A stretch of DNA of 39,249 nucleotides from a virus: the IMG/VR virus record IMGVR_UViG_3300017951_000038, positions 1 through 39,249 of that record; one strand, 5' to 3'. This document shows, in pieces, positions 10,144-36,196 of this stretch. Below the pieces are notes generated by a model. It did not search any database and was not told the DNA's origin. It worked only from the letters and a program-made list of their open reading frames with translations. The position numbers and the translations under genes were made by a program. The stretch's first letter is position 1. The number at the start of each line of letters is the position of its first letter.

Positions 10144-13002
10144 TTATCTAATAGCCTTTAACAGTGTTAAAAGGTCAAGGGCCTTTTTTAGCTGGTATAA
10201 TTTATCCTCTATATCAAACTCGTCTGATAGTTCCTTTGATAATTTTCTAGCAGCTTCTCCAAAGGAGATTTTAGTATTACCGGCGAACATATCAAAGACG
10301 CCTGTGTCTTCTGTGAGTTTCAGCATCTTATCCATTTGCTGTCCTAGCTTCTTAGTCCCGACGCTAAGTGTCAGCAGCTTTAAAAATGAGCTCGATAGGG
10401 GGTCGGCGCTTACTCTTTCTTTAGCCTTTGCAAATCTAGCGCCTTGTTCTCGCTGGCGCCTTTCTTCCATTGTTTCATTTTCCTTGGGCTTTGTATTAAA
10501 AAGCTCTTGCTCTGATAACATTATGTCATTCATGTGAGCATCCCGCTGCTGTGGTGTTTGCCCTCGTTTTAACTTATCTCTACCAACTGCATGATGATAA
10601 ATCTCAATAGCATCCTGCATGGCTAGTCTTGTATGCTCATTGATTCCGGCGCTTGCAAGCTTACTAATTGCCGTCGATAGGTGGTTGATTGTTCCTATTG
10701 ATAGGCCCTCTAACAAGTCACTGTCTCTGACTACATACCCAACTAACATGGACTTGATAAAGTCACGCCCCCGCCCGTTCAGTGTGCCGTCGTGGGTTCT
10801 AATCATTTCATTCATGTTCTCATTGGTTAGTACACCGTCCGCAAACAAGGCTTCTTTGAATCTGTTCAGTGCTGGGCTTGGCTTGGTCATTAGGTTTTCT
10901 ACATTATCAAAGCCGCTTTCTTTCAAAGCAATTTTCAAGGCGCCTAGTGTCCGCCCGTCCCGAATCTTAACGGCTGTCGCTAGTCCTAGCTGCCTTTCGT
11001 CAATACCTTGTGTCTTGGATTCGTTTAAAGTCCTTACAAGTTTAGCCAAGTGGTCTTTTGTTTCGGTCTTTGGCTTATATTCTCGAACCAATAAAGGCGC
11101 CTTAAACTTGCTTACTTCTTCGGCGCTAAATCCAAATGTGTCCGCTTGCTTTGTCAGATATTCTTTGTAAGCTGCGGCGCTTTCGGGGTGGTTTGCATAG
11201 ACTCTCTGTGCGCTCATTACTCGGCTATTACCGCCTAAGACTATTCCGTCGGGTGTGATGATCGGCGGGCCGTTTGTGGCGTCGGGGTTCGTATTGATCA
11301 AATAAACGGGGTCAAATGACTGTGCGTTCCGAATTACTTTCATCATTTCCGCTTTGTCACTATGATACTTGCGCTCTTGTACGCCCTCGGGATATTCTTC
11401 CCGCTTGCTGAATCCTACCGGCTCATGGGATGCTATAGCGTCGCCCGCTTCGACAATTCGATAAGTGACATTTTCTTTTTGATTCTTGCCGTCCAAGGTG
11501 AGCATGATCTTTGAATTGCGCTTATCGGTGTCTACTGTGGGCTTGTTCTCTGTACCTAACAAACCAACGATTCTAGGGTCATTTTTTAGTTCGGGCTTGG
11601 CTTTCAATAAATCATCTAATGAGCTCAATAATTCTGTCAGCTGTGCCTTGCTCGGTATTTTGGGCTCTTGTGCTGGTTCCGGCTTTGGTTCGGGCATAGT
11701 CTCAAAGTTATCGGCGCTTTGCTCTTGTGGCTTTAATAGCTTCTTAGAAATAAGGTCCTCTTGGTCTTTAAAGCGCTTTTTTAACTTTTTAAAGTTGCGT
11801 CTTTCTTCTGCCGTGGTCCCGCCGCCACTAGTGCGTATATTGGCATGAATTACTAGTTTCTCGATAATCTTGTGATATGCTTCTAGGTTTTCATTTTCCG
11901 CATTAGTATCGCCATTATAAATCGCATATATGTTATTGAAAAAGTCCTCATTTTCAGATTTATCTATATGTAAGAAAAAGGGCTTATTGTTAGCAAAGTA
12001 TAGATAATCCGTATCTAGCCCTAACGGGTTTGCTACTTCATCAAAAATGTTTTCTACGGCCGCTTGTAGTGCTTTTTTAGATCTATACTCGTTAGATTCT
12101 CGCCTGTCTGTTTTAATGATGCGTTGTAAGTAATCTAAGTTTTTCTTTGCGCTGGCTTCGATTTGACTAGCTAAAGCCTTTTCTTTTTTCGAGAGCTCTT
12201 TTGATTCGGGCATAGTCTCAAAGTTATCGGCGCTTTGTTCTTGCTGGGCGGCTTCCGCCTTGAGCTCATTTTCTGTTATAATGAGCTCTTTCTCTGTGTC
12301 CTTTATAATTTTTCCTAAGTCAATCTTCTGGGCGGGGGGCCTCATTGCTAAGACTTGATCTATAGTAAATATATTTTGAAAGTCGTCGCTAAGATACTTC
12401 TCACTAATGAGGTCTAGGGCTCTTTGAGCCCCTTTATGGTCCATTGCTTTATTGTCTAAAATAAAGTGTTGGACTTTGTTTGCATACTCAATAAAAGTCT
12501 TTAAGCGCTTGATCTTTTTTCGTGGGTCTTCTTTTAGTTCGGGCTTCTTCTTCTCAACACCGGCCATGCGTTCTAGCTTCTCAACTCGGTTCTTTGCCGC
12601 CTTAAGCCCAATATGCTTGGGGTTCTCTCGCTTCATCTTCTCATAGGACTCTCGGCGCTTCTTTGCGGTTTCTTTTAGGGCTTGGCCGTGCTCTCTAGCC
12701 AATAGGGCTTGAAATTCGGCCTTAGTCATTGTGACCTCTTTGTCAGTGCCGTCGTGCTTTACAGTGACTTTATCCCCGTCAACTGCTTTTACATGAAAGT
12801 GGCCCGCTTTCCCCGTGCTGGGGTCTTTTAATTTAAAAGCTGCACCCGCCTTTATATCCTCTACGGCTGTCACTCCGCCGCCGTGGTGTTCTTTGTAATA
12901 GTACCTATATTTTATCTTGCCCGTTTTTTTGTCTACTCCCCTCGGTACCTTTTTAAAATACTTTTTAACTTGTGCTTTTAATAGATCTAGTGTGTTAAAC
13001 AT
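10144..13002 (-). CDS. Polyvalent protein with DdrB-like ParB domain
   Basis: A 952-aa protein; ATG 13002 overlaps the preceding TAA (TAATG) behind AAGGAAA. Residues about 5-130 are a module shared with two other proteins here (YRYYYKEHHG, GHFHVKAVDGDKVTVKHDGT, KHIGLKAAKNR). The middle is charged and helical with two NFETMPE linkers near residues 261 and 433. Residues about 500-760 match the DdrB-like ParB superfamily domain: YRIVEAGDAIASHEP, then GPPIITPDGIVLGGNSRVM near 592, and LVRTLNESKTQGIDERQ. Phage P1 DdrB belongs to the head-packaged anti-defence set. An injected, DNA-acting protective role is likely. Catalysis is not shown. Confidence 0.75.
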   Translation of the reverse strand: MFNTLDLLKAQVKKYFKKVPRGVDKKTGKIKYRYYYKEHHGGGVTAVEDIKAGAAFKLKDPSTGKAGHFHVKAVDGDKVTVKHDGTDKEVTMTKAEFQALLAREHGQALKETAKKRRESYEKMKRENPKHIGLKAAKNRVEKLERMAGVEKKKPELKEDPRKKIKRLKTFIEYANKVQHFILDNKAMDHKGAQRALDLISEKYLSDDFQNIFTIDQVLAMRPPAQKIDLGKIIKDTEKELIITENELKAEAAQQEQSADNFETMPESKELSKKEKALASQIEASAKKNLDYLQRIIKTDRRESNEYRSKKALQAAVENIFDEVANPLGLDTDYLYFANNKPFFLHIDKSENEDFFNNIYAIYNGDTNAENENLEAYHKIIEKLVIHANIRTSGGGTTAEERRNFKKLKKRFKDQEDLISKKLLKPQEQSADNFETMPEPKPEPAQEPKIPSKAQLTELLSSLDDLLKAKPELKNDPRIVGLLGTENKPTVDTDKRNSKIMLTLDGKNQKENVTYRIVEAGDAIASHEPVGFSKREEYPEGVQERKYHSDKAEMMKVIRNAQSFDPVYLINTNPDATNGPPIITPDGIVLGGNSRVMSAQRVYANHPESAAAYKEYLTKQADTFGFSAEEVSKFKAPLLVREYKPKTETKDHLAKLVRTLNESKTQGIDERQLGLATAVKIRDGRTLGALKIALKESGFDNVENLMTKPSPALNRFKEALFADGVLTNENMNEMIRTHDGTLNGRGRDFIKSMLVGYVVRDSDLLEGLSIGTINHLSTAISKLASAGINEHTRLAMQDAIEIYHHAVGRDKLKRGQTPQQRDAHMNDIMLSEQELFNTKPKENETMEERRQREQGARFAKAKERVSADPLSSSFLKLLTLSVGTKKLGQQMDKMLKLTEDTGVFDMFAGNTKISFGEAARKLSKELSDEFDIEDKLYQLKKALDLLTLLKAIR
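11691..12237 (-). repeat. NFETMPE linker repeat, pair in the DdrB-like gene
   Basis: Two copies (11691-11721 and 12207-12237) identical over 31 bases. They code for QSADNFETMPE within charged linker regions. The inner 19-base word recurs five more times in the 1720-aa gene. Confidence 0.95.
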
Positions 13003-13679
13003 TATTTTTCCTTTTTATTGATCTGATCTACAACTTTACTACTCCACCGGTCCCCCGCATCCCCGCCCCATAAAAGCCAAGCAATAGCACCGGCGCTGGG
13101 TTCGCCTTTATCGTTTTTGCCGTCCTTGTTTTTTCTGTGTCGTGCAAAGAATGACTTCATCCGCTTTACAGTTTCAGCGCTCAATTCATCACGGTTTTTC
13201 AGATTAACGGCCCTTTGGACTCCGCTTCCTATTCCGTGTTTGGCGGCCTGTCTTACATCTAGCCCGCCCCGTCCATGCTTGCGCCTTAGCTCTAGTCCTC
13301 TCAAGGCCGCTCTTGCTACGTCTGCCGGCGGTTTATAACCTTTTTGGATAGGTTCTCCTAACAAGCTTTCAATGCTCTTTAGCATGGTATCAATTCGCCT
13401 TGTGTGGACTTGGCTCATTTGCTGTGCAAGCTCTTTAATCAAGTCTACCTCGCCACCCCGCTTTTTTTTATTTTTAGCTGATACTGTTTGAGATTTCAGC
13501 ATATTAATAAGGCTTTTGATCGTTGCGCCGGTTTCTAAAAGCACATATCCATGCCCCTTTTTTATATTAAAGGTTCGTCTTGGACCTTGCTGGCTCATTA
13601 CCTGTCTTACAATTTCCCACTGATTAATTGGGTCATGTAGTGCCGCCTTGGGCCCTTTGAATATAAATCTATTGCTCAT
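13002..13679 (-). CDS. Protein with conserved GRGG / WLLWGGDAG phage domain
   Basis: A 225-aa basic protein. ATG 13679 has GAGGTAGAC upstream, and it overlaps the end of the helicase gene by 11 bases. The C-terminal 110 residues show a domain I recall from many phage head and polyvalent proteins: YKPPADVARAALRGLELRRK, GRGG, SAETVKRMKSFFARHRKNK, and GAIAWLLWGGDAGDRWSSK. Its biochemical role is unknown to me. The N-terminal half (TGATIKSLINML, KNKKKRGGEVD) is charged and unassigned. A promoter-like site with perfect TATAAT lies just upstream. Membership of the polyvalent cluster is by context. Confidence 0.6.
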   Translation of the reverse strand: MSNRFIFKGPKAALHDPINQWEIVRQVMSQQGPRRTFNIKKGHGYVLLETGATIKSLINMLKSQTVSAKNKKKRGGEVDLIKELAQQMSQVHTRRIDTMLKSIESLLGEPIQKGYKPPADVARAALRGLELRRKHGRGGLDVRQAAKHGIGSGVQRAVNLKNRDELSAETVKRMKSFFARHRKNKDGKNDKGEPSAGAIAWLLWGGDAGDRWSSKVVDQINKKEK

Positions 13680-15636
13680 AGTCTACCTCGCATAATTTTT
13701 GAATTATACTATAACTATAAGCGCCTGTCGTCAGTAAATCCGCTTGTGCCTGTCTTACTCTGTCGTCTGCGCTTGTGTTTAATACGGCTCTATCTGAATC
13801 AAATAACAAGCCCGTTAAGCTGGCGCTTTGCATGATCTTTCTTGTAAGCGCTTTGTTTTTGGCTTCCTCTAGTCGTCCGCAACTTGGTCTTAATACTGTG
13901 ACCTTGTTTTTTTGGCCCTGTCTATACACTCTCGCTGTTGATTGTGTCAAGGTGTCCGGCGCCCAAGGTGTCGACAAATGAGCCACATAAGCGGCCCGCC
14001 TTTGTAAGTTGGCCCCTGTTTCTAGCGCTCTAGTTTGCCCTATTAAAACTCTTGATTCCCCTTTGTTCAAGCGGTCTATCATATCATGGCGGCTTTTCTT
14101 TGTGCTGCTGCCGCTGTATATGTCGATTAGATTTCTATGTACGCCCCGCCTGACTAGTGCATGATATATCGCTGTAAGTCCGCCTATATACTCACAAAAG
14201 ATAACGGCCCCTTTATCTATCCTCTGATCTAAGAATCTTTTTACATGATCGGCTATCATTTTTATTTTAGGGCTCTCATATTCGGGATATGTTCTATTAA
14301 AAGTTTCTGACCATATAGCTGGCGTTATCATTAATTGTTCAATGCGTTGCCCTAGTGCCTGTGCTGTGGCCGTGGCGCCCTCGGCGGCGACCTGTGGAAT
14401 AAAGCCATATTTTCCATTTAGCGCTTCATTGAAATAGCTAGAGTTAATTTCCCTTGCCGCTGTCGTTTCGATAAGCGCTTTCATCAAAGTTAGCTGGCCT
14501 TGGTCCGGTTTTAGATACGGCGCCAAGTCTACCCGTTCCGGTAGGTCAAGTTTACAATCTGGGTCCGTTGCTGCTCTGATAAATAGAACATTTTTCAACC
14601 GTAAATAGAGCTCGTCTAGTTTGTCGGCCCGTAACGCCCCCGCCGTGTACTGTACGCCCTTATTACTAATAAATGTATCAAAGACCTTGTAAGTGTACTC
14701 TCTAGCAAAGTCTTGATATGTACCAAGTACATTTGGCTTGATTCTGTTTATGACGTTGTAAAAATCTTCAACCTTGTTGGGCTTGGGTGTACCGGTGAGC
14801 CCAATTACCCTGTAAGCTCTTTCGCTTACCGCTTCAAAGGCATGGCCGGTCTTGCCGGTCCCCTTGTATTTATGGACTTCATCAGCAATTAATAAAGTTT
14901 TGTGCTCGGTGCATATTTTGTGAAAATACTTAAAATCTCTAGTAAATGTCTGCGGTGTTATTATTACGCCGTCAATTTGAGCAAAATAAAGTTTTGTGTA
15001 AGTGTCTTCTCTTTCTGCGGGGCTCATGTTCTCTAATATGATTATATTGGCATCACTAAGTTTTAAATGTTCTTGCCATGAGCTAAATGCACTTTTGGGC
15101 GCCGTGATTATTGTCCGTTTTAGCTCTCTACGTTGCTTTAAATGGTGATATGTGAGCAAGGCTATTAAAGTCTTACCAAGTCCCATTTCAAGCGCTAATA
15201 GAGCCCTCTTATTGATCGTTGCAAAATACACGGCCCTTTGCTGGTAAATATGCGGGGTCCACCCTTTTAGGCTCATTTTTGCCATGCCGTGGGGAATCTC
15301 GACAAGGATTGGCGTTTCAATGTCCCGCCGTCTTATTATCGGTTGCTCTGATACCTCACAAAACTGATAAAAAAACAATTCTCTTTCGTCGTCGGTCCAT
15401 TGGCACCATAAATCAGTGAGCCTAGTTATAATTGTGCTTAGGCGGTCTTCTTGTGAGATTGTTAGCTTTTCTTTTCGTTGGGCTCTGTCTAATAAATCTA
15501 GCGTCTTATCTCTCAAGTGCGGTGGCCCTAGCGCTTTGATAACGCCTAATCTTTTTAGGGTTTCAAAGTCCTGACTCCAAGCAAGTTTGTTTCGTGCTGT
15601 AAATAGGGGCGGTCGATCTATCGAGACTATTCTCAT
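13669..15636 (-). CDS. SNF2-family DNA helicase/translocase, stand-alone paralog
   Basis: A 655-aa protein with a complete SF2/SNF2 motor: motif I LALEMGLGKT (about residue 152), motif II LLIADEVHKYK (about 252), motif III GLTGTPKPNK, motif IV IFCEYIGG, motif V GQTRALETGANLQ, and motif VI QSTARVYRQGQ (about 570). It is a paralog of the 1200-aa protein upstream and matches that protein's residues from about 430 on, but lacks the shared N-terminal module. It probably remodels or translocates on DNA during replication, recombination or defence evasion. The start codon overlaps the end region of the reductase gene. Confidence 0.88.
   Translation of the reverse strand: MRIVSIDRPPLFTARNKLAWSQDFETLKRLGVIKALGPPHLRDKTLDLLDRAQRKEKLTISQEDRLSTIITRLTDLWCQWTDDERELFFYQFCEVSEQPIIRRRDIETPILVEIPHGMAKMSLKGWTPHIYQQRAVYFATINKRALLALEMGLGKTLIALLTYHHLKQRRELKRTIITAPKSAFSSWQEHLKLSDANIIILENMSPAEREDTYTKLYFAQIDGVIITPQTFTRDFKYFHKICTEHKTLLIADEVHKYKGTGKTGHAFEAVSERAYRVIGLTGTPKPNKVEDFYNVINRIKPNVLGTYQDFAREYTYKVFDTFISNKGVQYTAGALRADKLDELYLRLKNVLFIRAATDPDCKLDLPERVDLAPYLKPDQGQLTLMKALIETTAAREINSSYFNEALNGKYGFIPQVAAEGATATAQALGQRIEQLMITPAIWSETFNRTYPEYESPKIKMIADHVKRFLDQRIDKGAVIFCEYIGGLTAIYHALVRRGVHRNLIDIYSGSSTKKSRHDMIDRLNKGESRVLIGQTRALETGANLQRRAAYVAHLSTPWAPDTLTQSTARVYRQGQKNKVTVLRPSCGRLEEAKNKALTRKIMQSASLTGLLFDSDRAVLNTSADDRVRQAQADLLTTGAYSYSIIQKLCEVDYEQ
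13703..13731 (-). promoter_or_regulatory. Possible internal promoter before the GRGG/WLLWGG gene
   Basis: Minus-strand ACGACA (4 of 6 to -35), 17-base spacer, perfect TATAAT at 13703-13708. It lies in the end of the helicase gene and about 25 bases before ATG 13679, which would give a short leader carrying GAGGTAGAC. Confidence 0.35.
13928..13971. repeat. 44-bp block shared by the two SNF2 genes (copy 1)
   Basis: Differs at only one base from 23952-23995. It codes the motif VI region (APDTLTQSTARV). The match is closer than protein conservation alone requires. Confidence 0.85.
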
Positions 15637-15638
15637 AT

Positions 15639-17618
15639 TTATTTTAACTCACAAGCGCCCCCCGCACACGCCTGTGCTTCTAAAGGGCTGGTATTATCAA
15701 CTGTTTCAATCATTGTTGAATAGTCTACATTTTTCATTGTACTTTTCAATGATTGCCATAGCTGCCAAGCTTCTTTTTCTTGGTCCGTTTGCCCGTTTTC
15801 AGATACGGCGACAAGCGGCGCTTGTGGGTAGTCATAATCGCCCGTGACGCTTAAAAGTGATACGCCGGTGTATTTCTTTCTATTCATCCAAAGATAATCG
15901 GCCACGGCTTCCCACTCGCTGGGCTCAACCGTTACGGTTAAACTTACATTATGACTAGCGCCCTCTAAGGATTTTTTATCCGTTGTCGGGTCAATCCAAT
16001 GACGCTTGATCAACGCTGTTGTTTCTAGTAATTCAATCGCCGTAAGGTCGGCCTTGGTTAGTCCCTCGGCTTCCATAGGGAATACTACACAGTGCCCGTT
16101 ACCCCATACGCTTTTTTCAACGGCTTGCGGGTTCGTTTCTCTAAAATGATTAAAAACTTCTTCGCCGGTCGTTGTTTGAACACGGCGCAAGTATTTTTTT
16201 GCATGGTTCGGGTGTATGCCGCTAGATGTATTTAAAACAAGGCTTGCTGTCCCCTCGGGTTTTACACAAGTGATTCTTGCCGCTGGATTAATACCGATTC
16301 TAAACGCTGTTGCTTTGTTCCGTTCTCGTGCTGTTAAAGCCGCCGTTTCTAAGGTTTCCTTATCTAGCGCTATATTCGGATTTGAGAGGACGCCGCACAA
16401 GCTTACGCCTAGCAATGCTTCTCGCTCAATAATTTCTCGGCTCACTTCGCCAAGATAGCCGCTGTCTGTGTAGTCCGCTTGATATGTTCCTAGCTGGGCC
16501 GCAAGGCCGGCAAGCCTTACAAGGTCGTCCTTGGACTTTGCTTTGCTCACATTTATAGATGTTAGGTTGCAGACTTGCCACCCGCTTTCAAAAGTGTAGC
16601 CTTGGTCCTCATATAGCGTTCTGTTGGCTGGATTAATTAGGTCTAGTGTATAGTCGTCTACTATGTAGCCCTCGGGGTCCTTAATTAGCAGCGGGCACAT
16701 AACGATTTCTACACAAGGATTTACGCAATGCTCTGTACTTTCTAGGAATAAAAAGGCGGGCTCTCCAAATTGCCTTGTGCTCTCAAATAGCCGTTTAAAG
16801 TCCTGTTCTTGTGCACTCGGTAAAACAACGGCGCTTATATTGGCTCTTGCTCTGTGACTATGTTCCTCAAACCAATTTCCGGTTTTAGCGTTCATCATTT
16901 CATCATCATCAAGTGAGAATAGGGCTATTGTTGCGCTTCTACGGGTTCCGGCGGTCACTGTGCAGTTTGCCAAGTGCATTACAATATCAAAGGCTTCAAT
17001 CGGCTTTAGCTGGCGCCCTATGGCCCCTCTCAAGATCGGTTCAATGTTTTCTAGGGCCTTTTTTAAGGGTAAATGGCCGGGGGCTTTGCCGCCCACTGAT
17101 AGCGGCGCCCCCTCGGGTCTGATCTGTGAATAATCAAATTGAGGATAGCACATATTCAGCATAAAGGCGCTAATTAACGTATTAACAGCATCCGCCCACC
17201 CCTCAATAGAATCCGGCACAATATAGACCATGTTTTCTTTTGGTTCTCTGATCTGTGGAAGCTGGGCCACATGGTGTTTTTGTACTGAAAATCCTACGCC
17301 GGACCCGCACAATAACAGCCAAAGCGCTTCCGCAAAGAATCTCGGGCGGTCGCAATGTGAGCTAGTACAGTTGTACATTCTCATGTTCTTTCGCTCAATA
17401 CCCGCCCCGCCAAATTGTAGACCTCTCATGGACGGTAGGATTTCTTTGTTCAAAAGCGCCTTTTCTATCGGGTCAATCAATCCATGGTCCGATTCATAAG
17501 CAAAGCGCCTACGGTGCATTTCAATATATCTTTTTACGCTCTCCGGCCATTCTTCCCGCCGCTGTGCTTCTTTATTATATCGTGCATATTTGAGCTTATA
17601 AACAAACTCGTCAATCAT
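15639..17618 (-). CDS. nrdJ: Class II (adenosylcobalamin-dependent) ribonucleotide reductase
   Basis: A 659-aa enzyme that makes deoxyribonucleotides from ribonucleotides using a B12-derived thiyl radical, so no NrdB partner is needed. Visible hallmarks: MYNCTSSHC near residue 83 (first redox Cys), GSGVGFSVQKHH, NPCVEI near 300 (radical Cys and catalytic Glu), WQVCNLTSINVS near 348 (second redox Cys), PEGTASLVLNTSSGIHP, and a C-terminal CAGGAC pair (Cx4C) for reduction of the active site. The 48 residues between the radical and the second redox Cys suggest an insertion. GAGGG precedes ATG 17618. With the dCMP deaminase it forms a small dNTP-supply cassette. Confidence 0.92.
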   Translation of the reverse strand: MIDEFVYKLKYARYNKEAQRREEWPESVKRYIEMHRRRFAYESDHGLIDPIEKALLNKEILPSMRGLQFGGAGIERKNMRMYNCTSSHCDRPRFFAEALWLLLCGSGVGFSVQKHHVAQLPQIREPKENMVYIVPDSIEGWADAVNTLISAFMLNMCYPQFDYSQIRPEGAPLSVGGKAPGHLPLKKALENIEPILRGAIGRQLKPIEAFDIVMHLANCTVTAGTRRSATIALFSLDDDEMMNAKTGNWFEEHSHRARANISAVVLPSAQEQDFKRLFESTRQFGEPAFLFLESTEHCVNPCVEIVMCPLLIKDPEGYIVDDYTLDLINPANRTLYEDQGYTFESGWQVCNLTSINVSKAKSKDDLVRLAGLAAQLGTYQADYTDSGYLGEVSREIIEREALLGVSLCGVLSNPNIALDKETLETAALTARERNKATAFRIGINPAARITCVKPEGTASLVLNTSSGIHPNHAKKYLRRVQTTTGEEVFNHFRETNPQAVEKSVWGNGHCVVFPMEAEGLTKADLTAIELLETTALIKRHWIDPTTDKKSLEGASHNVSLTVTVEPSEWEAVADYLWMNRKKYTGVSLLSVTGDYDYPQAPLVAVSENGQTDQEKEAWQLWQSLKSTMKNVDYSTMIETVDNTSPLEAQACAGGACELK

Positions 17619-17666
17619 AACTCGCCCTCTCGGTTTTTAAAGTTTAGGGCTTCTTACAATATGCCA

Positions 17667-18119
17667 TTAGATGTCCTGTGTCGAGTAAATTACTACTCCG
17701 TTCTCTTTTAGATATTTTATACCGGCGCTATGAGTTGTTAGCGGTGTGTAAACTTGTACTATCCCGCCATGATGAATCGCCTTGGCGCACATTAAACACG
17801 GGTCACAATTTACAATTAGCCAAGCGCCAAGTGTAGATATGCCCGTTCTTGTAGCGTTTAAAATGGCGTTCATTTCTGCATGGTGGCACCCTACATCATT
17901 CTGTGTGCCGCTTGTAATGTACCTGATCTCCCTTTGACAAAATGAGCCGCCACAAAGCGCCTTATCTGACCCTCTAGGCGTTCCATTGTAGCCCTCGCTT
18001 ATTGTCGTGTTCGATTGTGGGTCTATTATTAAAGCGCCCACTTTACGCCGTCCACATGGGCTAGCGCTGGCAATTAGCTTGCACTGTTCAATTCTGATTT
18101 TTAAATGCTTAGGGTTCAT
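17667..18119 (-). CDS. dCMP deaminase
   Basis: A 150-aa zinc enzyme converting dCMP to dUMP, the substrate for thymidylate synthesis. It has the cytidine/deoxycytidylate deaminase motifs: SEGYNGTPRG, HAEMNAI (zinc His and proton-shuttle Glu) and DPCLMCAKAI (two zinc Cys). An extra CGGSFCQRE element gives the longer form typical of phage and Gram-positive dCMP deaminases. GAGAGGA precedes ATG 18119. It lies 48 bases upstream of the reductase start, which makes a shared role in nucleotide supply very likely. Confidence 0.9.
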   Translation of the reverse strand: MNPKHLKIRIEQCKLIASASPCGRRKVGALIIDPQSNTTISEGYNGTPRGSDKALCGGSFCQREIRYITSGTQNDVGCHHAEMNAILNATRTGISTLGAWLIVNCDPCLMCAKAIHHGGIVQVYTPLTTHSAGIKYLKENGVVIYSTQDI

Positions 18120-18162
18120 AGGTTCCTCTCAATAACTTTTTAGGGTTAATGAGAGTAGAACA

Positions 18163-21100
18163 TTAAGCGGCGCCGTTCAATGCCTTATAGAGCGCTGCAC
18201 GGTAGTTAATTAAACTATGTGCACTTTTCTTTACGGGGTTAAGCGCCCTATATAGTTTTTGAATGTCCGCCTTAATCTTTGCTCTGATCTTTTCCCTATG
18301 TTCCGGCTCTCTTGTTCCCTCATTGAACATTGGACCATATTTATGGGCCTGTGTGACTCGTGGCTTTAATGGTCCTAGCACCTTTTCGGCGTGAATATCT
18401 AAGCGCTGGTGCATTAGAATTAATTCATTGTCGATTGCACGTTGCTTCTTTGATCTCATTAGCGTTTTAGTCGGGGTTTCCTTTGCCACTGTGAGGAATC
18501 TTGAGCGGTCGTAAATCTGCGCTATCTCACTTGGATTGAGCTCACTTGAATAATTGGTCAATCGTTCCTCGCTCAAACTCGGTGTAATTCTGACCGCTGC
18601 ACTTTCGGCGCTTTGGTCGCTTGCCGTTTCAATTAGTTGAGCTCTTGCCGGTGCCGGTGCTGGTGCTGGTGTTTGTGCTTCTGAGCTTTTAGGGTACTTC
18701 TCTCTCATTTTTTCTATAAGGTTTATATAGCTCTGTCTAGTACCATGATTCTGCTGGACCTCTGCTTCTTTTGCTGTTGATTTAAAAGGTTTTCTAAGAG
18801 AAATCCACCCGCCCGTTGAATTGTCATTAGCGCTAAGTTGTCTTTGGGCCCATTCGCTTAAATGTTCTTTTATGTACTCTCTAATTTGCGTTTCTACTTT
18901 CTCTTTTGTGTTTTGTATATCTCTAAAGCTTTTTATTCGTCCCGCTGCGCTTCTTTTGTTTTCTAAGCTCTCAAGCCTTAATAGCTGTTCTTTTATGACT
19001 TGTAAGTCTTTTCCTTGCTTGATAATCGGCTCGGGTGCGGGTGCTGGTGCGGGCTCGCTCTCTCTGCTCGGTTCAAGGCTTGTTTTAGCAATATCTTTTA
19101 AGACTTGCTCAAGGGTGTCTTTGACAATAGTTTCTGTAAGCTTTTTTGCTGCTGGGCCTTGGGGCGTTATTGTGAAATGGAATCGGGTGGACGAGTTTTC
19201 CAATAGGCCGTCTATAATAGCTTGGTTATTATTCTTAGATAGTGCTTCATTTAGTAAGCTTTCGCTTCTCTGCTTATAGACTTTTTTTGCTTCCTTGGTG
19301 AGCTCTATCGTTTCCTCTATTCCGGACTTTAGTTTTTCATCTTCTTTTAGATTGGATGCCTTAATGGTGTCTAGTCTGTTTTGGGCTTGTTCAATGTGAT
19401 AGTCAAAGATGCTGATCGCCCGTTCTTCTGTTTTGTTTTTTCGCTTGGCTGCTGTGTCTTTTGTTCTCTTTACTGCATTTCCTATACCTAATGTTAATAA
19501 CTCATTAGCAATCTTTCCAATTTCCTCTTTCTGTGCTCTTACTTCTCCAATAGTGTTAAGACTTAATTTTTCTCGGATAAAGTCAGATATTCCCCTAGGG
19601 TTCCCCCTTTCATTTCGGACCGCTTTATTATTTCGGTCAAAGGTGATTACTGTCCTTACTTGAAAGTTTTTATATTCCTTTGCAAGCGGGTTTGTTTCGG
19701 TTGCGTTCTCTATACCTTGTAATAGTCCTCGCTCTCTTATCCCGCTTTCCGCCGCTAGTCTATCTGGCTCTAGCTTCTTTTTTAGGCTGGCTAGTGTTTC
19801 ATCTTCGTAAACGCCCCGCACTTCGGATTCGTCAATAAGCGCCCTCGTTTGATATAACTCTCCGGCTGTCACTTCTTTGAATACTTTTCTTTTTTTAGCT
19901 TGGCGGGGTTCGCTAAAGTTTATCTCGGGCATAGTCTCAAAGTTGCTGGCGCTTAGCTTGGCGGCGGCTTCATCAAAACGCTTTGTAATTTGAGCCCGTT
20001 GGCTTGGGGTTAGCTGCGGTACTGATGAAGACTCGGACCGGCGGTCTTTATGTCTAAAGTATCTTTCTTTTAGGTGTTGGATTATTTCAGCATCTGTTTC
20101 TGTTCTTGTTTCTTCAAAGATCTGTTTAGCTCTTGCTACATACTCTTTTTCAAAATCTAAGTATTCTTGCTTTGCTAATTCTCGGTGTGCTGGTGTTTTG
20201 CTGTCTCTAATAATCCTCTTGGCTAGTTTTCCATAGCCGTTATGTAAAGAGTTTCTTGCTATGATAGATAGGTAATCTGTTCTAAAGTCTTTTAATAATG
20301 CTTTAAGAGAATCAAAGTCTCCTTTTTCAGCAAAGTTTATGAGTTGTGTGTGCGCCGTTTGGTTATGGTTCCATGCATTGACTAGTTTTAACTTATCAGA
20401 ATCTTGGACTACTTGTTTTAGGTCATATAAGCTCGGTGTGTAGCCTGTTTGGAATCTAGCTTGATAATGTCCTCTTGAAGCTGTTTCGTCCAATAAGCGC
20501 TTAATTTCGGGACGCTCGTTCCTATCCCAATAGGTCCCCTTTAGGCCGTCTGTTTTATCACTTGTCGTTATGTCGCTAGATTCTATAAGCTCGGCTCTTG
20601 CTGGGACTTTCTGTTGGCGCTGTTCCATTAAGCCCATGCGTCTTGCGGCGCTTTGTCTGTCTCTTTGTAAATCCCTGTTTTGAAAGTCTATAAAGTCTTT
20701 TTGTGGGTCTGTGTCAAAGCTATTAATAGCTGCGCTTAGGGCTTCATCTATTGACTTGTATTCGCCTAATTCCATTTGAGAAGCTTGGGCTTCACTTATC
20801 TCTTTTCGACTTTCGGGTGTTAATGAAATGGATGTATATACTTTTGTCCTTGTGCCCGCTAAGAGTTGACCACTAGCCCCTATAGGTCCGCCCTGCACTC
20901 TTAGCCCCTCTCTTTCATATTGAAAATATCTTCTCGTGCCTATTGGTGTCTTTGTCTCAAAGTAAGTAGGCTCTCCAAACCATTTTTTAGCATCCTCGGC
21001 GGTTCTTTCGCCTTTCGGTGGTAGCTTGCTTTCGGGCATAGTCTCAAAGTTGCTGGCGCTTAGTTTTTCAAGATTATTAAGTGCTGTTCTTAAGCTTCTT

Positions 21101-23325
21101 CTTGATTTGTTTCTTTCCTTTTGAATGTCGCCATGGTCTTGTCTTGACCCTCTTAAAAGTGTCTGCTCATTTTTAAAGTGACTTAAAGACCCTCTCATTT
21201 CCATTAATATGTGTTGTTTAGGTGTTCTGTCTTGGAACGGCGTGTCGCTAGGGTGTACAGTGTCCTTAAAATCGTTGTCTATGATCTTTTGGATATGTTC
21301 AATCAACTTTTTGTCTGCATTAATTGAAGCTCTTGCTCTCCTACCGTTTTTGATTTCATCTTTCTCTAAGCTCTCTTTTAGTAGTGAGTGCGCTTCTTTG
21401 AGCCGTTGTGTTGTACCGCTTTCAGCTCCGGGCATAGTCTCAAAGTTATCTACGCTTTCAGCTTCGGGCATAGTCTCAAAGTTATTGGTAGCCGGTGCCG
21501 TTGTTGGGCTGTCGGTCGGCTTGCCCTCTACCTCTAAAGCAAACTTGCGGGCGTCCTCTGCATTTTTGAATAGGTAGGCTTTCGCATAGCGGCTATCATA
21601 GCGCCCCTTATATTTCTTAGCTATCTGTACACGGCGCTTAAACTCGTCACGGTCTACACGGTCTTTTTGTTTCGCTGTGAACAGCTTAACGCCGGTCTTC
21701 GTGTGTGTATGCTCGGCAAGCTCAAAGTTATCAATCTTGGCGGGCTGTGGTGCTGGCCCTTGCACCGGTTCCGGTGTCTCAATTAATTGAGCACGGGCGG
21801 CGGGTTGTGATGCTGGCTCTTGTACCGGCTCGGGCATAGTCTCAAAGTTATCCTTAGATTGTGCTTGGTATGCGGCCTTGTTTTCCTCGCCTCTAAGTAT
21901 TTCAATAAGGTCACTTAAGAGTATATCCCTTAATAAGTCGCCTGTCACATTGATAGGGTGGACGGGGTGTTTAATTAATTTTGATTTAAGGTCTTTAACC
22001 TGTCCGGCCTTAACCTTTATTGTTGCGGTAATACCTCTATCGTAAATTGCTTCTATTTCGGGGAAGAATCTTTTTACCCTTGTAAATAGTTCTCTACTGT
22101 TTGCCGGTTGTTTAAAGGTATGTTCCCCTGTTTGGTCTTCTAGCTCTTTTATATCCTTTAAAAGATTCGTCTTAACTTCTGCGTAAATCTCTGTTGTAAA
22201 CTCATTAGGCCGGTTTAAGCGGCTAGGGTTGTGGGGGTGTTCGTATATGTTTTTAAGGTACCGCAATCTTTCTTTGTTTGTGTTTAGCGTTCTTCTATAC
22301 CCTGTAAAAGTCTTTGGTGGGATTGGTTTGTATTGCCCTTGAACCGGGTCCGGTGTTCGCATCAAGGCGCCCACTTCCTTGTTAGGCTCTTGCTTCGCTG
22401 CTTGCTCTCTATACCAACTAGCATAGCGCTCTCTTGCTGTTGCTGGTAATTTAATGCCCGCTTTATCTGCCGCCGCTTGTAGTCTATTAAACGCCGCTTT
22501 AAGCCCTATATGCTTCGGGGTGTCTCGCTTCATGCGCTCATAGGTTTCTTTTTTCGCTTGAAAGTTTTCTTTAAGCGCTTGCCCGTGTTCTTTCATAAGT
22601 AGCGCTTTGAGCTCGCTCTTTGTCATGGTGACGCTGCGCCCTGTTTCGTCATGCTCAACTACAACGACACTACCCTTTACAGCTTTTACATGAAAGTGTC
22701 CGGCTTGTCCGCTTTGGGGGTCCTTTAGTTTAAATGCATCACCCGCTTTCGTATCTTCCGCTGCGCCCGTTATGCCCGTTTTTCCTCTGTGCACATGGTA
22801 GAAATACTCCCAACGCTTCCGCCCGTGTTTGTCATATCCTCTAAACTTTTTATAGTCGTATAAATGCCCCGCCCCTTTTTCTAGCTCGTCATGCTCAAGA
22901 TAATGATAAGCGCTTTGAATAGCGTATGCGGCTCGGTCAATCTTGCTCTGTACCCACTCGGCTAGGTCCTTATCGTCGGGGGCGCTCTCTAACATTTCAG
23001 CGAGTCTATTCGCATAGTCAGCAAGTAGCTTCGCACGGCGCCGGCTCATTGGTACGTCTTGATTTGATTTAAGTGCTTTGTTCATAGTCGCCGGACTTGG
23101 CGCTTTGGTGTTTAGTATACTATCCATGCAAGCCTGTACTTCTTTCGCACTAAATAGACTAGGTTCGCTTATGCTGTAATCTAAAGCTTCATTAGCAAGC
23201 CATTTAGGGACTTTTTGCCCGCTGGCGGTTAGGTGCTTTAACGCTTTAATTATTGGTTGCTTTCGTCCGGCTTTATCACCGGCTTTCGTACCGTTTGGCG
23301 CTAGGTTTGTGATAAGTATATTCAT
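18163..23325 (-). CDS. Giant multidomain internal (polyvalent-type) protein
   Basis: A 1720-aa protein, the largest here, starting at ATG 23325 behind AAGGG. Order: N-terminal helices with EWVQSKIDRAAYAIQSAYHY (about 120-142), a motif seen in phage head-linked proteins; the shared module at about 150-290; an ELAEHTHTKTG...FKNAEDARKF region at about 540-590, like the KTG/AKK-type domain of large polyvalent proteins; then long charged coiled-coil stretches to the end. Five exact NFETMPE linkers (about 493, 617, 629, 760, 1129) and three R-A-[QE]-L-I-E-[TS] linkers separate segments. Ala/Pro tracts (PAPAPAPEP) act as spacers. No catalytic site is recognised. It is likely packaged and injected; its biochemical role is unknown. 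Confidence 0.6.
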   Translation of the reverse strand: MNILITNLAPNGTKAGDKAGRKQPIIKALKHLTASGQKVPKWLANEALDYSISEPSLFSAKEVQACMDSILNTKAPSPATMNKALKSNQDVPMSRRRAKLLADYANRLAEMLESAPDDKDLAEWVQSKIDRAAYAIQSAYHYLEHDELEKGAGHLYDYKKFRGYDKHGRKRWEYFYHVHRGKTGITGAAEDTKAGDAFKLKDPQSGQAGHFHVKAVKGSVVVVEHDETGRSVTMTKSELKALLMKEHGQALKENFQAKKETYERMKRDTPKHIGLKAAFNRLQAAADKAGIKLPATARERYASWYREQAAKQEPNKEVGALMRTPDPVQGQYKPIPPKTFTGYRRTLNTNKERLRYLKNIYEHPHNPSRLNRPNEFTTEIYAEVKTNLLKDIKELEDQTGEHTFKQPANSRELFTRVKRFFPEIEAIYDRGITATIKVKAGQVKDLKSKLIKHPVHPINVTGDLLRDILLSDLIEILRGEENKAAYQAQSKDNFETMPEPVQEPASQPAARAQLIETPEPVQGPAPQPAKIDNFELAEHTHTKTGVKLFTAKQKDRVDRDEFKRRVQIAKKYKGRYDSRYAKAYLFKNAEDARKFALEVEGKPTDSPTTAPATNNFETMPEAESVDNFETMPGAESGTTQRLKEAHSLLKESLEKDEIKNGRRARASINADKKLIEHIQKIIDNDFKDTVHPSDTPFQDRTPKQHILMEMRGSLSHFKNEQTLLRGSRQDHGDIQKERNKSRRSLRTALNNLEKLSASNFETMPESKLPPKGERTAEDAKKWFGEPTYFETKTPIGTRRYFQYEREGLRVQGGPIGASGQLLAGTRTKVYTSISLTPESRKEISEAQASQMELGEYKSIDEALSAAINSFDTDPQKDFIDFQNRDLQRDRQSAARRMGLMEQRQQKVPARAELIESSDITTSDKTDGLKGTYWDRNERPEIKRLLDETASRGHYQARFQTGYTPSLYDLKQVVQDSDKLKLVNAWNHNQTAHTQLINFAEKGDFDSLKALLKDFRTDYLSIIARNSLHNGYGKLAKRIIRDSKTPAHRELAKQEYLDFEKEYVARAKQIFEETRTETDAEIIQHLKERYFRHKDRRSESSSVPQLTPSQRAQITKRFDEAAAKLSASNFETMPEINFSEPRQAKKRKVFKEVTAGELYQTRALIDESEVRGVYEDETLASLKKKLEPDRLAAESGIRERGLLQGIENATETNPLAKEYKNFQVRTVITFDRNNKAVRNERGNPRGISDFIREKLSLNTIGEVRAQKEEIGKIANELLTLGIGNAVKRTKDTAAKRKNKTEERAISIFDYHIEQAQNRLDTIKASNLKEDEKLKSGIEETIELTKEAKKVYKQRSESLLNEALSKNNNQAIIDGLLENSSTRFHFTITPQGPAAKKLTETIVKDTLEQVLKDIAKTSLEPSRESEPAPAPAPEPIIKQGKDLQVIKEQLLRLESLENKRSAAGRIKSFRDIQNTKEKVETQIREYIKEHLSEWAQRQLSANDNSTGGWISLRKPFKSTAKEAEVQQNHGTRQSYINLIEKMREKYPKSSEAQTPAPAPAPARAQLIETASDQSAESAAVRITPSLSEERLTNYSSELNPSEIAQIYDRSRFLTVAKETPTKTLMRSKKQRAIDNELILMHQRLDIHAEKVLGPLKPRVTQAHKYGPMFNEGTREPEHREKIRAKIKADIQKLYRALNPVKKSAHSLINYRAALYKALNGAA
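19926..21852 (-). repeat. NFETMPE linker repeat, five copies in the 1720-aa gene
   Basis: The 19-base word CGGGCATAGTCTCAAAGTT (plus strand) occurs at 19926, 21033, 21429, 21465 and 21831, always in the same frame, coding NFETMP(E/G). The copies at 19926 and 21033 share a longer block with the same SASNFETMPE context. A decayed copy (DNFELAEH) sits near 21720. Confidence 0.95.
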
Positions 23326-23326
23326 C

Positions 23327-26300
23327 TTAATTCCCTTTAAGTTTCAATAATCCTTTGTGAGCGGTTGCATAAACTCCCGCCCAAAATGAAGCATTTGTAA
23401 GGCTCTGCTCGGCGTCAATGATCTTATTAGTATGGTCTTCTATAATTAAGTCGCCTTTTCTCTCTGCAACTATCTTCATCCTACTATAAAAAGCTTCTAA
23501 GTTTTCGGACGTTTTGGGGTTTTTAAAAAACTCTCTATCAAAAGAGTTGGTAAACCATTCTTGTCCTTTATCTAGTTTCTTTTTCTGTGCCTTTGTTTTA
23601 AACGCTGGCGCTATTTCCTCAAGACTGCTCTCTGCTGTTAACATATCGCTTGCTTGTTCTTGTTGCGGTTGTTGTACCTGTTCCCGCTGTTCTATTTCGT
23701 CGCCTTGTGCATCCAAGTTTAGATTTTCGAGCTCTTTAATTCCTAGCAAGCTTGCAATGCTGTTTAAGTCACTTAGCTGGCGGCGTTCGTCCGCCGTTGT
23801 CCTAATTGCGCCCTCGTCGGCTACCATTACCCGCCCCGCCGCTTGTGCTGCTTGGCTTATTTTGCTGGTGACTACTCGGTCTTTTACTCGCTCTATCTCT
23901 GAACCTGTAGGCCTTAAAATCGTTGTCTTTCTTCTTTGGCCTTGTCGGTAAACTCTCGCTGTTGATTGTGTCAAAGTGTCCGGCGCCCAAGGTGTGTTTA
24001 AATGGGCAACAAAATTGGCCCGCTTCTGTAAATTGGCCCCTGTTTCTAGCGCTTTCGTCTGCCCTAAGATTACTTTTATTTCACCCTCATTTAGTCTTTG
24101 TTCGATCTCTCGTCGCTTTTTTGAGCTAACGGCCCCGTAATAAAGCTCTATTTGTTCTGCTGGGATGCCCCTTTTGACAAGTGCTTCCTTTGCTTCTCTT
24201 AACCCGCCTACATACTCACAAAATAAAACGGCCCCCGTTTCCGGATTGGTTTCCAAGTGTTCTACTGCGGCGTCCGCTATGACTCCCATTTTTGGCGTTT
24301 CATATTCGGGGTTATAGATTTCAAACAAGGCTTTAGTCTCGGCGCTACAAGCGGCGGGGTCCACGGCTATTTGATCAAGTCTAATAGCAAGGCTATCCAT
24401 GCCTGAAACGGCCATACTCCAAGCAAGTATTTCTTGAGCTCTTTCATTATCCTTTTTTATGATCTCTTTAAAATAACTAGGCTCGTTTATACACTTAACC
24501 ATATCAGCATTTAAGCTGTCTGTTCTAAGAAATGCTTGGCGAAATTGCGGCGGTAGCCTTTCCGGTTCGGGGTGCCCTATATAGCGCCTTGCCATTGCTT
24601 TCGCTTCACAAAGTGGGCCTAGCACTGTGATTAATTCGGTTTGTGTTTTATCAAGATTTAAAGCTGGTGCTATGTCTATTCGATTAGGTAGGTCTAGTTT
24701 GGCGTCGGGGTCGTTTGTTGATCTAACAAAAAGCATTTCAGCGTTTAGGTGATGAAATTCGTTTAGCCTTGCGGGGTTAAATGTCACCGGTGTTTTAATT
24801 GTTTTCGTTCCATATTGAGTAGGAACATCTTCCGAGACTGATAAACAATAACGGTCCTCAAAGTCCTCTTGGCTAATGTCCCAATTAGGGTTTACTCTTG
24901 CCATTATATTATAAAAATCAATAGGCTTGTTGGGTTTCGGGGTTCCGGTCATCCCTACTACCCGCCCCGCTTGGGCGCTTAATTCTCCAAATGCTAAACC
25001 TTGTGAGCTATCAGCCTTGTATTTATGAACCTCGTCCGCAATAAATAAAGTGTCTTGATCTACTAGCTGCGTAATATGTGCAAAATCGCCCGCTTTGCTT
25101 TTAGCGTTGGGTTTTGGCTTTCTTATTGTTTCGGGGTTGATTACTAAAACATCAATTTCCCCGTTTTTAAACTTCTCATAAGCTGCAAGCCGTTTCTTTT
25201 TAGATGCGCCGGATAGGACTTCATACTTTACATCGCTCAAGCCGCTTAAGTGCTCTATCCAAGACCCGTGAGCGCTTAAGGGCGCTGTAACTATCATGCG
25301 CTTTGTTTCTTTTTTAGACTTCAAGTGTTTATATAAGCCTAGTGCGCTTAAAGTTTTACCTAGTCCCATTTCCATAGCCCAAACTACACGGGGCTTTGCT
25401 AGTGCAAAATTGATTGCTTTCTTTTGGTATTCGTGAAAACTCCAACCTTTTTCTTTCATCTTTTCCATGCCGCTGGGGATTTCTAGCTGCGCATTTTCAT
25501 GTAAGGGGTGCCTTAGTGTGCCGGTAAACTGTTCTTCTAAATTGAGATAGTTATAATAAAACTTTTCTCGCTCATCATCATTTAAGCCGGCCCACCAATT
25601 CGCAAGGCGGGATATAGGTTTAGCAAGTTTTTGTCTTGCGCCCTCGCCTAGCCGGTCCCCTTTTGACGCTCTAGCAATTAACCCAAATATAAAGTTTCGG
25701 TTGCTTTCGTTTTTGCCAAGTGCATCAAAGAATCCAAGGTCCCGTAAGTCGGGATTCTCATTTAGCATGTAATTAGCCCAAGTCGCTTTTTTTTCTATCT
25801 CAAAGTCAAACTTAGACAAGTCTAGTGCAAGAAAATTGGGCGGTAAGCCGGCGCTTAAAGATACACCCTCTTTGGTTCCTCGGCTGTCAAATATCCTTGT
25901 TTCTGAATCAGCAAAAACAAGCTCTAGTCCGTGTTCTTCCGCATGGTAAATTAATGTTTTCCAATTAGGTGTCCCTACGCTGGTAATGTCTTTTTTTCCC
26001 TCAACCATTAAAAAGTGATGATGCGCCTTTTTTAGCCCGTGTGCATTGTATCTATGGTCATAAGATGAAAAGCGGCTATTTAAAAGTAAGTCGGGGCTTT
26101 CTGCGTCATATAATGTTCGCCATTTATCTGCACCTTTAGCCCGTACCCATACTTTAATTTCTCTATGATTATCAAAGTCCCTTGGATGAATTGCGCCGTG
26201 TGGTATTTCAAAGCTATAATTAAATGACTTTAAATGGACCTCATGTTCTCTGTATGTTTCCTCTTTGGGTTCAAGCCATTGATTGTCTTTTTTGTATCGT

Positions 26301-26929
26301 ACTTTCTTTTCTTCAATCTCGTTCCAAGTTGTGGTTTGTGATTTTACTATTTGTTCGGCGGTTTCTTGTGTAACCCATTTTGGCATATTTCTGCCGGCTT
26401 TGTCCTTTAATACTATTCTGTATCTAAGGTGGCTAAAGTCATTTATATCCTTTATTAAACCTTGTCTGGCGTCTTTTTCCCACTTCGGGACCTCTAGTCC
26501 AAGATAGGCCGCTCGGCGTTCGCTTAACTTGGTTCTTATGCTTCCCTGTTTTCTCTCACGCCGGATGCGTTCTAATAGCTCTTTTTTAGCTTCTGTGATT
26601 GCGTCAGCGTGGTGTCTCTTTATCCACTCACTAAACTTTTTCTTATCACTAAATGTAAAGACTTCGCCCGTTTCGTCATGCTTTACCGTGACGCCGTTTT
26701 TTGTGCTTGTTACATGAACATGGCCCCGCTGTCCGTTCTTCCCTGTGTACTCATAAGACGAACCTACCATTATGTCTTCTATGGCACCCATTCCCCGCCC
26801 GTGTAAGTGCTTTTTACGGTAGTAGTATTTATACCGCTTACGCCCGTTTTTGTCCGTGTATGGTACACGGCGGTCGTATAAATGGTGTGCTGCTTTCCAT
26901 AGGTCAAAGACAATTTGAAAATACTTCAT
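23327..26929 (-). CDS. Polyvalent-type SNF2 helicase with N-terminal module (1200 aa)
   Basis: The frame is open from 27079, but the start at ATG 26929 is chosen. It has GGAG 8 bases upstream, follows the portal stop by one base, and its first residues (KYFQIVFDLWKAAHHLYD) begin the shared module. A longer start would add only a (KRT)n artefact of the portal repeat. The module covers about 12-110 (YKYYYRKKHLHGRG, GHVHVTSTKNGVTVKHDETG). The SNF2 motor follows: WAMEMGLGKT near 521, FIADEVHKYK near 631, GMTGTPKPNK, FCEYVGGLREA, GQTKALETGANLQK, QSTARVYRQGQ near 990. A charged tail ends it. P1 DarB-like head helicases protect incoming DNA; a similar injected role is inferred. Confidence 0.85.
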   Translation of the reverse strand: MKYFQIVFDLWKAAHHLYDRRVPYTDKNGRKRYKYYYRKKHLHGRGMGAIEDIMVGSSYEYTGKNGQRGHVHVTSTKNGVTVKHDETGEVFTFSDKKKFSEWIKRHHADAITEAKKELLERIRRERKQGSIRTKLSERRAAYLGLEVPKWEKDARQGLIKDINDFSHLRYRIVLKDKAGRNMPKWVTQETAEQIVKSQTTTWNEIEEKKVRYKKDNQWLEPKEETYREHEVHLKSFNYSFEIPHGAIHPRDFDNHREIKVWVRAKGADKWRTLYDAESPDLLLNSRFSSYDHRYNAHGLKKAHHHFLMVEGKKDITSVGTPNWKTLIYHAEEHGLELVFADSETRIFDSRGTKEGVSLSAGLPPNFLALDLSKFDFEIEKKATWANYMLNENPDLRDLGFFDALGKNESNRNFIFGLIARASKGDRLGEGARQKLAKPISRLANWWAGLNDDEREKFYYNYLNLEEQFTGTLRHPLHENAQLEIPSGMEKMKEKGWSFHEYQKKAINFALAKPRVVWAMEMGLGKTLSALGLYKHLKSKKETKRMIVTAPLSAHGSWIEHLSGLSDVKYEVLSGASKKKRLAAYEKFKNGEIDVLVINPETIRKPKPNAKSKAGDFAHITQLVDQDTLFIADEVHKYKADSSQGLAFGELSAQAGRVVGMTGTPKPNKPIDFYNIMARVNPNWDISQEDFEDRYCLSVSEDVPTQYGTKTIKTPVTFNPARLNEFHHLNAEMLFVRSTNDPDAKLDLPNRIDIAPALNLDKTQTELITVLGPLCEAKAMARRYIGHPEPERLPPQFRQAFLRTDSLNADMVKCINEPSYFKEIIKKDNERAQEILAWSMAVSGMDSLAIRLDQIAVDPAACSAETKALFEIYNPEYETPKMGVIADAAVEHLETNPETGAVLFCEYVGGLREAKEALVKRGIPAEQIELYYGAVSSKKRREIEQRLNEGEIKVILGQTKALETGANLQKRANFVAHLNTPWAPDTLTQSTARVYRQGQRRKTTILRPTGSEIERVKDRVVTSKISQAAQAAGRVMVADEGAIRTTADERRQLSDLNSIASLLGIKELENLNLDAQGDEIEQREQVQQPQQEQASDMLTAESSLEEIAPAFKTKAQKKKLDKGQEWFTNSFDREFFKNPKTSENLEAFYSRMKIVAERKGDLIIEDHTNKIIDAEQSLTNASFWAGVYATAHKGLLKLKGN
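23952..23995. repeat. 44-bp block shared by the two SNF2 genes (copy 2)
   Basis: Partner of 13928-13971, one mismatch. Both are in the minus-strand reading frame of helicase motif VI. Confidence 0.85.
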
Positions 26930-29026: not shown

Positions 29027-29070
29027 AAAGCGCACCTTTTTAAAGGGTTAGTTTGCGCTTAGTTTACACG

Positions 29071-36162: not shown

Positions 36163-36196
36163 ATTCATAACTCCATTTTAAATGATCATTGTCGGG

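Follow-up and report, generated by a model that had tools for sequence, protein, structure and literature searches.

Why does one phage hold its portal and MuF genes apart by a long block that encodes three giant proteins, and where do those proteins act? The phage is uncultured and is represented by the IMG/VR viral record IMGVR_UViG_3300017951_000038, a linear stretch of 39,249 bp analysed at its full length and called the window here; judged by its TerL, portal, MuF, protease, capsid and sheath genes, it is contractile-tailed. Identities were assigned by profile search against PHROG, Pfam and NCBIfam, with Pfam and PHROG matches counted at E<=0.01, and all open reading frames (ORFs) of the island and head region lie on the minus strand. 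The island, between portal (26931-28409) and MuF (9134-10141), spans 10144-26929, and its genes follow the portal gene in the transcription order G1200, G1720, dCMP deaminase, class II ribonucleotide reductase (RNR), SNF2b, g225 and G952, then MuF. A preliminary description of the sequence had tentatively taken the whole block for head-packaged, injected proteins splitting two normally adjacent genes. The split is as described, by proteins of 952 aa (10144-13002), 1720 aa (18163-23325) and 1200 aa (from an ATG at 26929), and portal-MuF adjacency does occur, in the related contigs L047 and L057; of the two SNF2 helicases counted beside three giants, both exist, one being the 1200-aa giant itself. 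Loading of the three giants into the head explains this locus best and is, to us, rather probable, because they have a head-type N-terminal site, a common module, an avoidance of cysteine, a late-operon position and DdrB-ParB homology; it also counts that relatives have modules of the island type fused to their portal or protease. The RNR, dCMP deaminase and SNF2b carry neither tag nor module, so the proposal of a head-loaded island would apply to the giants and not to these three. The giants and their parts are as follows, a slash marking the presumed cut.

23327 to 26929, minus strand: G1200, NYYY module and SNF2 motor (Pfam SNF2 1.8e-13, Helicase_C 5e-17); optional cargo
26498 to 26923, minus strand: NYYY module of G1200, starting FDLWK/AA (26891-26902), from an alignment of 23 modules
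18163 to 23325, minus strand: G1720, giant mosaic, no Pfam or PHROG match at the threshold, 1 Cys in 1720 aa
22468 to 22905, minus strand: NYYY module inside G1720, preceded by DELEK/GAG (22873-22884)
10144 to 13002, minus strand: G952, comprising NYYY module, linker with motif A (NFETMPE), ddrB-ParB domain and helical region, 0 Cys in 952 aa
12553 to 13002, minus strand: NYYY module of G952, N-terminal LDLLK/AQ (12973-12984), AlphaFold model pLDDT 81
11074 to 11484, minus strand: ddrB-ParB domain of G952, aa 507-643 (PF18763, 2.7e-20, above its cut-off)

Relatives were gathered by portal, motif A and NYYY-module searches (the last with a subset of the alignment) and their genes then mapped; L-numbers denote these related contigs, L190 being Bacillus phage Adastra. 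Alignment shows that a module of ~130 aa, NYYY, is common to all three giants. In 23/23 sequences the positions K9, Y34, Y36, H68, H70, D84 and H105 are invariant, and the start is always [LMF]xK[AG], with the lysine in every sequence, L, M or F two residues before it and A or G after it. The AlphaFold model (pLDDT 81) has a beta hairpin, a small barrel and long helices; its matches in the PDB are weak and SH3/Tudor-like (best E 0.03), and the one significant viral match in the structure search is a DdrB-like protein of an uncultured phage. NYYY is joined to at least four different bodies, including those in a variable slot between g225 and G952.

The peptide at the start of the module recurs in the portal, the protease and the major capsid protein; these and MuF are encoded at:

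26931 to 28409, minus strand: portal protein (phrog_12 2e-52; Pfam Phage_portal 3e-23), N-terminal FGLVK/GA site at 28362-28373
9134 to 10141, minus strand: MuF minor head protein (phrog_115 1.3e-11; Pfam VG15 only below its cut-off)
8437 to 9144, minus strand: head maturation protease (phrog_1028 2.8e-45), N-terminal INLYK/A
6394 to 7845, minus strand: major capsid protein, MCP (phrog_752 4.9e-65), GQLQK/ANSSYVGYQ with its site at 7783-7794

Within the first ~35 residues, LxK[AGS] is present in 23 of 34 nonredundant portal, protease and MCP sequences and in 11 of 18 giants with an N-terminal NYYY module, vs 4 of 87 non-head proteins (Fisher 9.5e-13 and 1.3e-7, respectively); control patterns of equal form (LxR, LxE, KxL) were not significant. 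By family, nonredundant orthologues have it in 9/10 MCPs and 6/10 portals, and in 1/8 RNRs and 0/8 SNF2b proteins. Inside the giants LxK sites are at chance level (53 vs 48), so only the protein ends are informative, and the other end also carries LxK[AGS], in the last 30 residues of 10 of 27 giants vs 2.0 expected. The C-termini of several ParB giants (window 10144-10200; L060, L198, L201, L211, L039) read (L)LDLYKA[LI][RK]C, possibly a C-terminal copy of the head-protease site that holds the last and often the only cysteine.

What cuts at such a site is suggested by Staphylococcus phage K/812, whose deposited mature MCP chains (9row) have as their first residue S25, which follows ...EDVVK at the place equivalent to GQLQK/A in the window MCP. 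Since those chains start after a lysine, we read the N-terminal tag of the giants as a head-protease site, on the precedents of T4, SPN3US and P1. P1 DarB needs no more than its first 30 aa to be targeted to the capsid (PMC9024508), and in SPN3US the head and internal proteins share one cleavage motif (PMC10052503). As with the capsid targeting sequence of the T4 internal proteins and Alt, a short N-terminal peptide is found here on unrelated cargo and on head proteins; unlike there, the site is [LMF]xK/[AGS] followed by a folded module of ~130 aa, and the cargo is giant. The heads of SPN3US and phiKZ, cut at AXE, likewise have one protease motif in MCP, portal, protease and internal proteins (PMC10052503), but in the window the site is of a lysine type and the cargo is unrelated to theirs. 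The window protease has a C-terminal tail (8599-8694) that resembles the N-arm of the MCP (7740-7794), both with LxK[GS]..GYQTP...LVPQQL, as in many relatives; the protease may enter the prohead by imitating the arm of the capsid protein and then cut itself loose at its LxK site.

Cysteine content separates likely cargo from cell enzymes within the operon. Nonredundant NYYY giants (n=30) have 23 cysteines in 32,288 aa (0.07%), vs 1.96% in the RNR, 5.4% in the dCMP deaminase, 1.19% in MuF, 0.63% in the portal and 0.59% in SNF2b. Ejected proteins of other phages have none (T7 gp15 0/747, T7 gp16 0/1318, N4 vRNAP 0/3500), and the P1 head-loaded proteins few (DarA 1/639, DdrB 2). Lacking tag and module and being rich in cysteine, the RNR and dCMP deaminase look like enzymes of the infected cell and, by these criteria, fall outside the putative delivered set. 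The other island genes are:

17667 to 18119, minus strand: dCMP deaminase (phrog_174 4.9e-30), untagged, 8 Cys in 150 aa
15639 to 17618, minus strand: class II (B12-type) RNR (phrog_367 1.8e-109), untagged, 14 Cys; NCBIfam RTPR, adenosylcobalamin type, at 5.5e-59 yet below the family cut-off
13669 to 15636, minus strand: SNF2b (655 aa), stand-alone SNF2 motor without NYYY module, N-terminal LxK site in 0/8 orthologues
13002 to 13679, minus strand: g225, WLLWGG protein, Cys-free (phrog_2859 2.3e-14; DUF6321-like, weak)

Each of two giants has one recognised catalytic domain, ddrB-ParB in G952 (the GGNSR box invariant in the alignment) and SNF2 in G1200, while G1720, the largest protein, has several cassettes without a known family. 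The SNF2 motors of G1200 and SNF2b are paralogues (40-47% identical). SNF2 motors recur in DarB-like proteins. The predicted structure of G952 from the ParB domain to the C-terminus (pLDDT 73) has no PDB match, Pfam finds no DarB-type adenine methylase in G1200 or SNF2b, and no window protein contains HExxH, so that the C-terminal zincin metallopeptidase of DdrB type is absent. The P1 DarB/DdrB theme of the preliminary description is borne out for ddrB-ParB (2.7e-20) and SNF2; the methylase of P1 DarB and the peptidase of P1 DdrB have no counterpart here. PADLOC and NCBIfam gave SNF2 superfamily matches only, far under the cut-offs where cut-offs exist, and accordingly no defence system is claimed. 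The domains are not merely homologues of replication proteins: ddrB-ParB is a head-protein domain in P1 and a predicted NTP-regulated DNase (PMC5512222).

The giants come closest to the polyvalent proteins (Iyer et al. 2017, PMC5512222). They share very large size, a place beside late virion genes and ddrB-ParB or SNF2 domains, and in relatives the motif A proteins carry DarA_C, ART-PolyVal and ddrB-ParB; what sets them apart is that they share one N-terminal address module and one putative head-protease site, repeat motifs in their linkers and have no zincin peptidase. With the P1 Dar system (DarA, DarB, DdrB, Hdf), whose anti-restriction proteins are head-loaded via N-terminal signals (PMC9024508), the common element is the DdrB-ParB domain; the window differs in lacking the DarB methylase, the DarA domain and the C-terminal peptidase, and in placing the cargo between portal and MuF.

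The linkers that join the domains carry two short motifs, NFETMPE (motif A) and [PA]RxQL[IT]ET (motif B). Motif A has seven copies in the window, one of them NFETMPG, all in G952 and G1720 (chance expectation 0.00):

21829 to 21849, minus strand: motif A copy 1 of G1720, aa 493
21775 to 21798, minus strand: motif B ARAQLIET of G1720, aa 510
21463 to 21483, minus strand: motif A copy 2 of G1720, aa 615
21427 to 21447, minus strand: motif A variant NFETMPG, 12 aa past copy 2 of G1720
21031 to 21051, minus strand: motif A copy 3 of G1720, aa 759; cassette breakpoint vs L007
20578 to 20604, minus strand: motif B PARAELIES of G1720, aa 908
19924 to 19944, minus strand: motif A copy 4 of G1720, aa 1128; cassette breakpoint vs L007
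18625 to 18651, minus strand: motif B PARAQLIET of G1720, aa 1559; joins the C-terminal domain
12205 to 12225, minus strand: motif A copy 1 of G952, aa 260
11689 to 11709, minus strand: motif A copy 2 of G952, aa 432

A degenerate-codon scan of IMG/VR found motif A in 53 stretches, nearly all within giant ORFs in P/E/S-rich linkers, vs 4 stretches for the reversed peptide. The domains carried by motif proteins are ddrB-ParB, DarA_C, ART-PolyVal, DUF3560 or SNF2. When recurring 6-mers were counted without bias across 45 motif proteins, only motif A (32 contexts) and motif B (at least 4) came out, besides simple E/P/A-rich linker words. The linkers had been called new-looking, and in the open-access text searched and the polyvalent-protein paper no description of NFETMPE or motif B was found, subscription literature lying mostly outside the search; the word 'linker' is absent from the main text of that paper (PMC5512222). 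In a scan of cellular genomes most of the matches listed were a loop of the CorA magnesium transporter, YGMNFETMPEL, whose identity to motif A is probably a coincidence.

Docking peptide, release site and plain joint are all candidates for the role of motif A. That both motifs are mere recombination seams or spacer peptides, with no role in binding or processing, is a doubtful but serious alternative. They stand exactly at cassette joints: between G1720 and L007 the cassettes are permuted, and every new joint sits on motif A or B. Copies within one genome also share codons, with 82% of third positions alike vs 52% between genomes, and the DNA identity of such copies does not reach beyond the motif's 21 bp. 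Across genomes, however, the same seven residues are written with different codons in unrelated proteins, with changes tolerated mainly at the last residue; because synonymous sites differ in this way, the pattern indicates selection on motif A as a peptide. Tandem copies exactly 12 aa apart are found not only in the window and its close relatives but also in L054 and L016, which otherwise differ, and this fixed spacing slightly favours multivalent docking by motif A as a putative docking peptide.

Motif A as a cut site that frees the domains, through a metallopeptidase or a host protease after entry, is unlikely. Its position in flexible interdomain linkers, its repetition and the idea of processing put forward by Iyer et al. 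(PMC5512222) speak for such a role, but window proteins have no HExxH; among the 45 motif proteins only L031 and L034 have a zincin-like HExxH, and the remaining matches lie in charged, coil-like sequence. Self-processing of the giants by a zincin of the window was rejected for the same lack, and cleavage of motif A by the head protease was rejected since the motif has no lysine and is unlike LxK.

How stable is this arrangement? It recurs in ~20 uncultured contigs, with the ParB giant directly before MuF in 20, SNF2b and g225 as neighbours in 21 and RNR and SNF2b in 14, counts that are biased because the contigs were chosen via their giants. GC content in the island is 0.42-0.47, slightly under the flanks, and intergenic gaps are mostly 1-50 bp. 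The near-flank composition, tight gaps and recurring order of ParB giant and MuF together point to a stable arrangement of a phage lineage; the word 'inserted', which implied a recent event, was not borne out, and recent horizontal insertion was rejected on base composition and conserved gene order. The cargo itself varies. G1200 is missing between portal and G1720 in L006, the dCMP deaminase gene is in 3 contigs only, and 8 contigs have an extra NYYY protein of variable length between g225 and the ParB giant; in L047 and L057, where portal adjoins MuF, an NYYY giant follows MuF. Two domains that have genes of their own in the window, DUF5824 (35162-35608) and WLLWGG (13002-13679), are fused to the portals of L008 (3674-6055), L009, L047 (1967-4510) and L057 (4111-6735), and the protease of L008 and L009 carries part of the N-terminal module of G1720. 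Among named phages there was no relative of the 1720-aa protein, and G952 was matched by its ParB part only and G1200 by its SNF2 part only. SNF2b is split over several frames in L021 (3-1371) and L203 (2531-6568), as is the RNR of L203, these being pseudogenes or sequencing errors.

The portal and MCP are distant kin of those of Herelleviridae (SPO1/K): the portal is 37% identical to SPO1-like portals, the MCP is homologous to SPO1 gp6.1 and to the phage K/812 MCP, the order protease-scaffold-MCP is the same, and in Adastra the portal, scaffold and MCP have LxK-type sites. In Adastra, however, the protease follows the portal directly, with no MuF or cargo island, while in the window both MuF and the island lie between. 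RNR alpha and beta genes stand just before the Adastra portal (L190:4535-7865) and the class II RNR after the window portal, a different RNR class at a similar place.

In the process we propose, which we judge as a whole to be probable, the island would serve an uncultured contractile lineage, whose portal and capsid are distantly related to those of SPO1 and K, as a cargo bay within its late head operon. The three giants, probably together with g225 and the DUF5824 protein, would be synthesised alongside the head proteins and drawn into the prohead, the N-terminal peptide ending in [LMF]xK[AGS] and the NYYY module serving as address tag; the head protease would cut the giants after the tag lysine, as in the capsid protein, and they would remain in the filled head and be ejected with the DNA. 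In the new cell the DdrB-ParB nuclease/NTPase, the SNF2 translocase and the G1720 cassettes would act on DNA or defences before phage gene expression, an anti-defence or DNA action that homology makes plausible as a prediction. The flexible linkers with motifs A and B would join cassettes, allow domain swaps and perhaps bind a common partner, and the RNR and dCMP deaminase would share only the operon and act in the producing cell. Two further tagged proteins are encoded at:

35162 to 35608, minus strand: g148b, DUF5824 protein (PF19141 9.9e-23), N-terminus FDLVK/AK
35620 to 36168, minus strand: g182, acidic, Cys-free, N-terminus TDLIK/GA

Several points weigh against this proposal: (i) LxK[AGS] is short, its strict form is absent from one third of portal and protease orthologues, and start codons were chosen mechanically for the N-terminal counts; (ii) the G1720 site is at aa 148-151, not at the N-terminus; (iii) documented cleavage at such a site is limited to the capsid protein of a distant relative; (iv) NYYY has no solved homologue at E<=0.001; and (v) plain structural proteins (sheath, decoration) are sometimes Cys-poor too, and the cysteines of G1200 are all in its SNF2 part, which is as Cys-rich as SNF2b, so that cysteine does not settle G1200.

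The giants might instead be scaffold-like or internal core proteins of a complex head, which are packaged and cut but whose task is head assembly or the organisation of the genome, not action in the next cell. The processing site shared with head proteins, the strong charge of the giants (17% K+R, 14-15% D+E) and the modules fused to portal and protease would suit this, but SNF2 and ddrB-ParB are odd domains for assembly factors, as is cargo that is optional or variable (the absence of G1200 from L006, the variable NYYY slot), and near-zero cysteine is like ejected proteins; we find a pure core role quite improbable, though a double role is compatible with the data. Slightly less probable still is that the whole block stays unpackaged and serves replication and nucleotide supply, expressed late in the producing cell, as its metabolism and DNA enzymes (RNR, dCMP deaminase, SNF2) and the RNR genes beside the portal of SPO1-like Adastra might suggest, since the head-type site is on the giants and mostly not on RNR (1/8) or SNF2b (0/8), the giants avoid cysteine and the RNR does not, and ddrB-ParB is known as a P1 head-protein domain (PMC5512222).

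A few observations concern the surroundings of the island. The C-terminus of the portal (26931-27079) has about eight EDQ repeats, another frame of which reads (KRT)n, so that the G1200 ORF could begin as early as a TTG at 27079. The portal gene is immediately preceded by one for an endolysin-like protein (28409-29035; phrog_21357, 3.9e-8), and at the window edge a plus-strand ORF (6-371) is proline-rich, of low complexity and unlike the remaining region. A promoter and terminator scan found sites no commoner than in shuffled sequence.

What phage heads carry, and how giant proteins are sorted into them, is mostly a guess made from the position of genes. In this operon the sequence by itself sets candidate cargo, tagged and Cys-free, apart from untagged Cys-rich enzymes, and the tag predicts exact cleavage sites, making delivery directly testable. 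More tentatively, the head address ([LMF]xK/[AG] plus NYYY) and the joint peptides may form a portable code that recurs across the polyvalent proteins of unrelated phages, the joints allowing cassettes to be shuffled and being recognised by a common head or host factor. The two short motifs are handles for seeking injected proteins in other phages and, if the proposal is true, phages would have in NYYY, or in the peptide at its N-terminus, a natural signal that directs large proteins into their heads.

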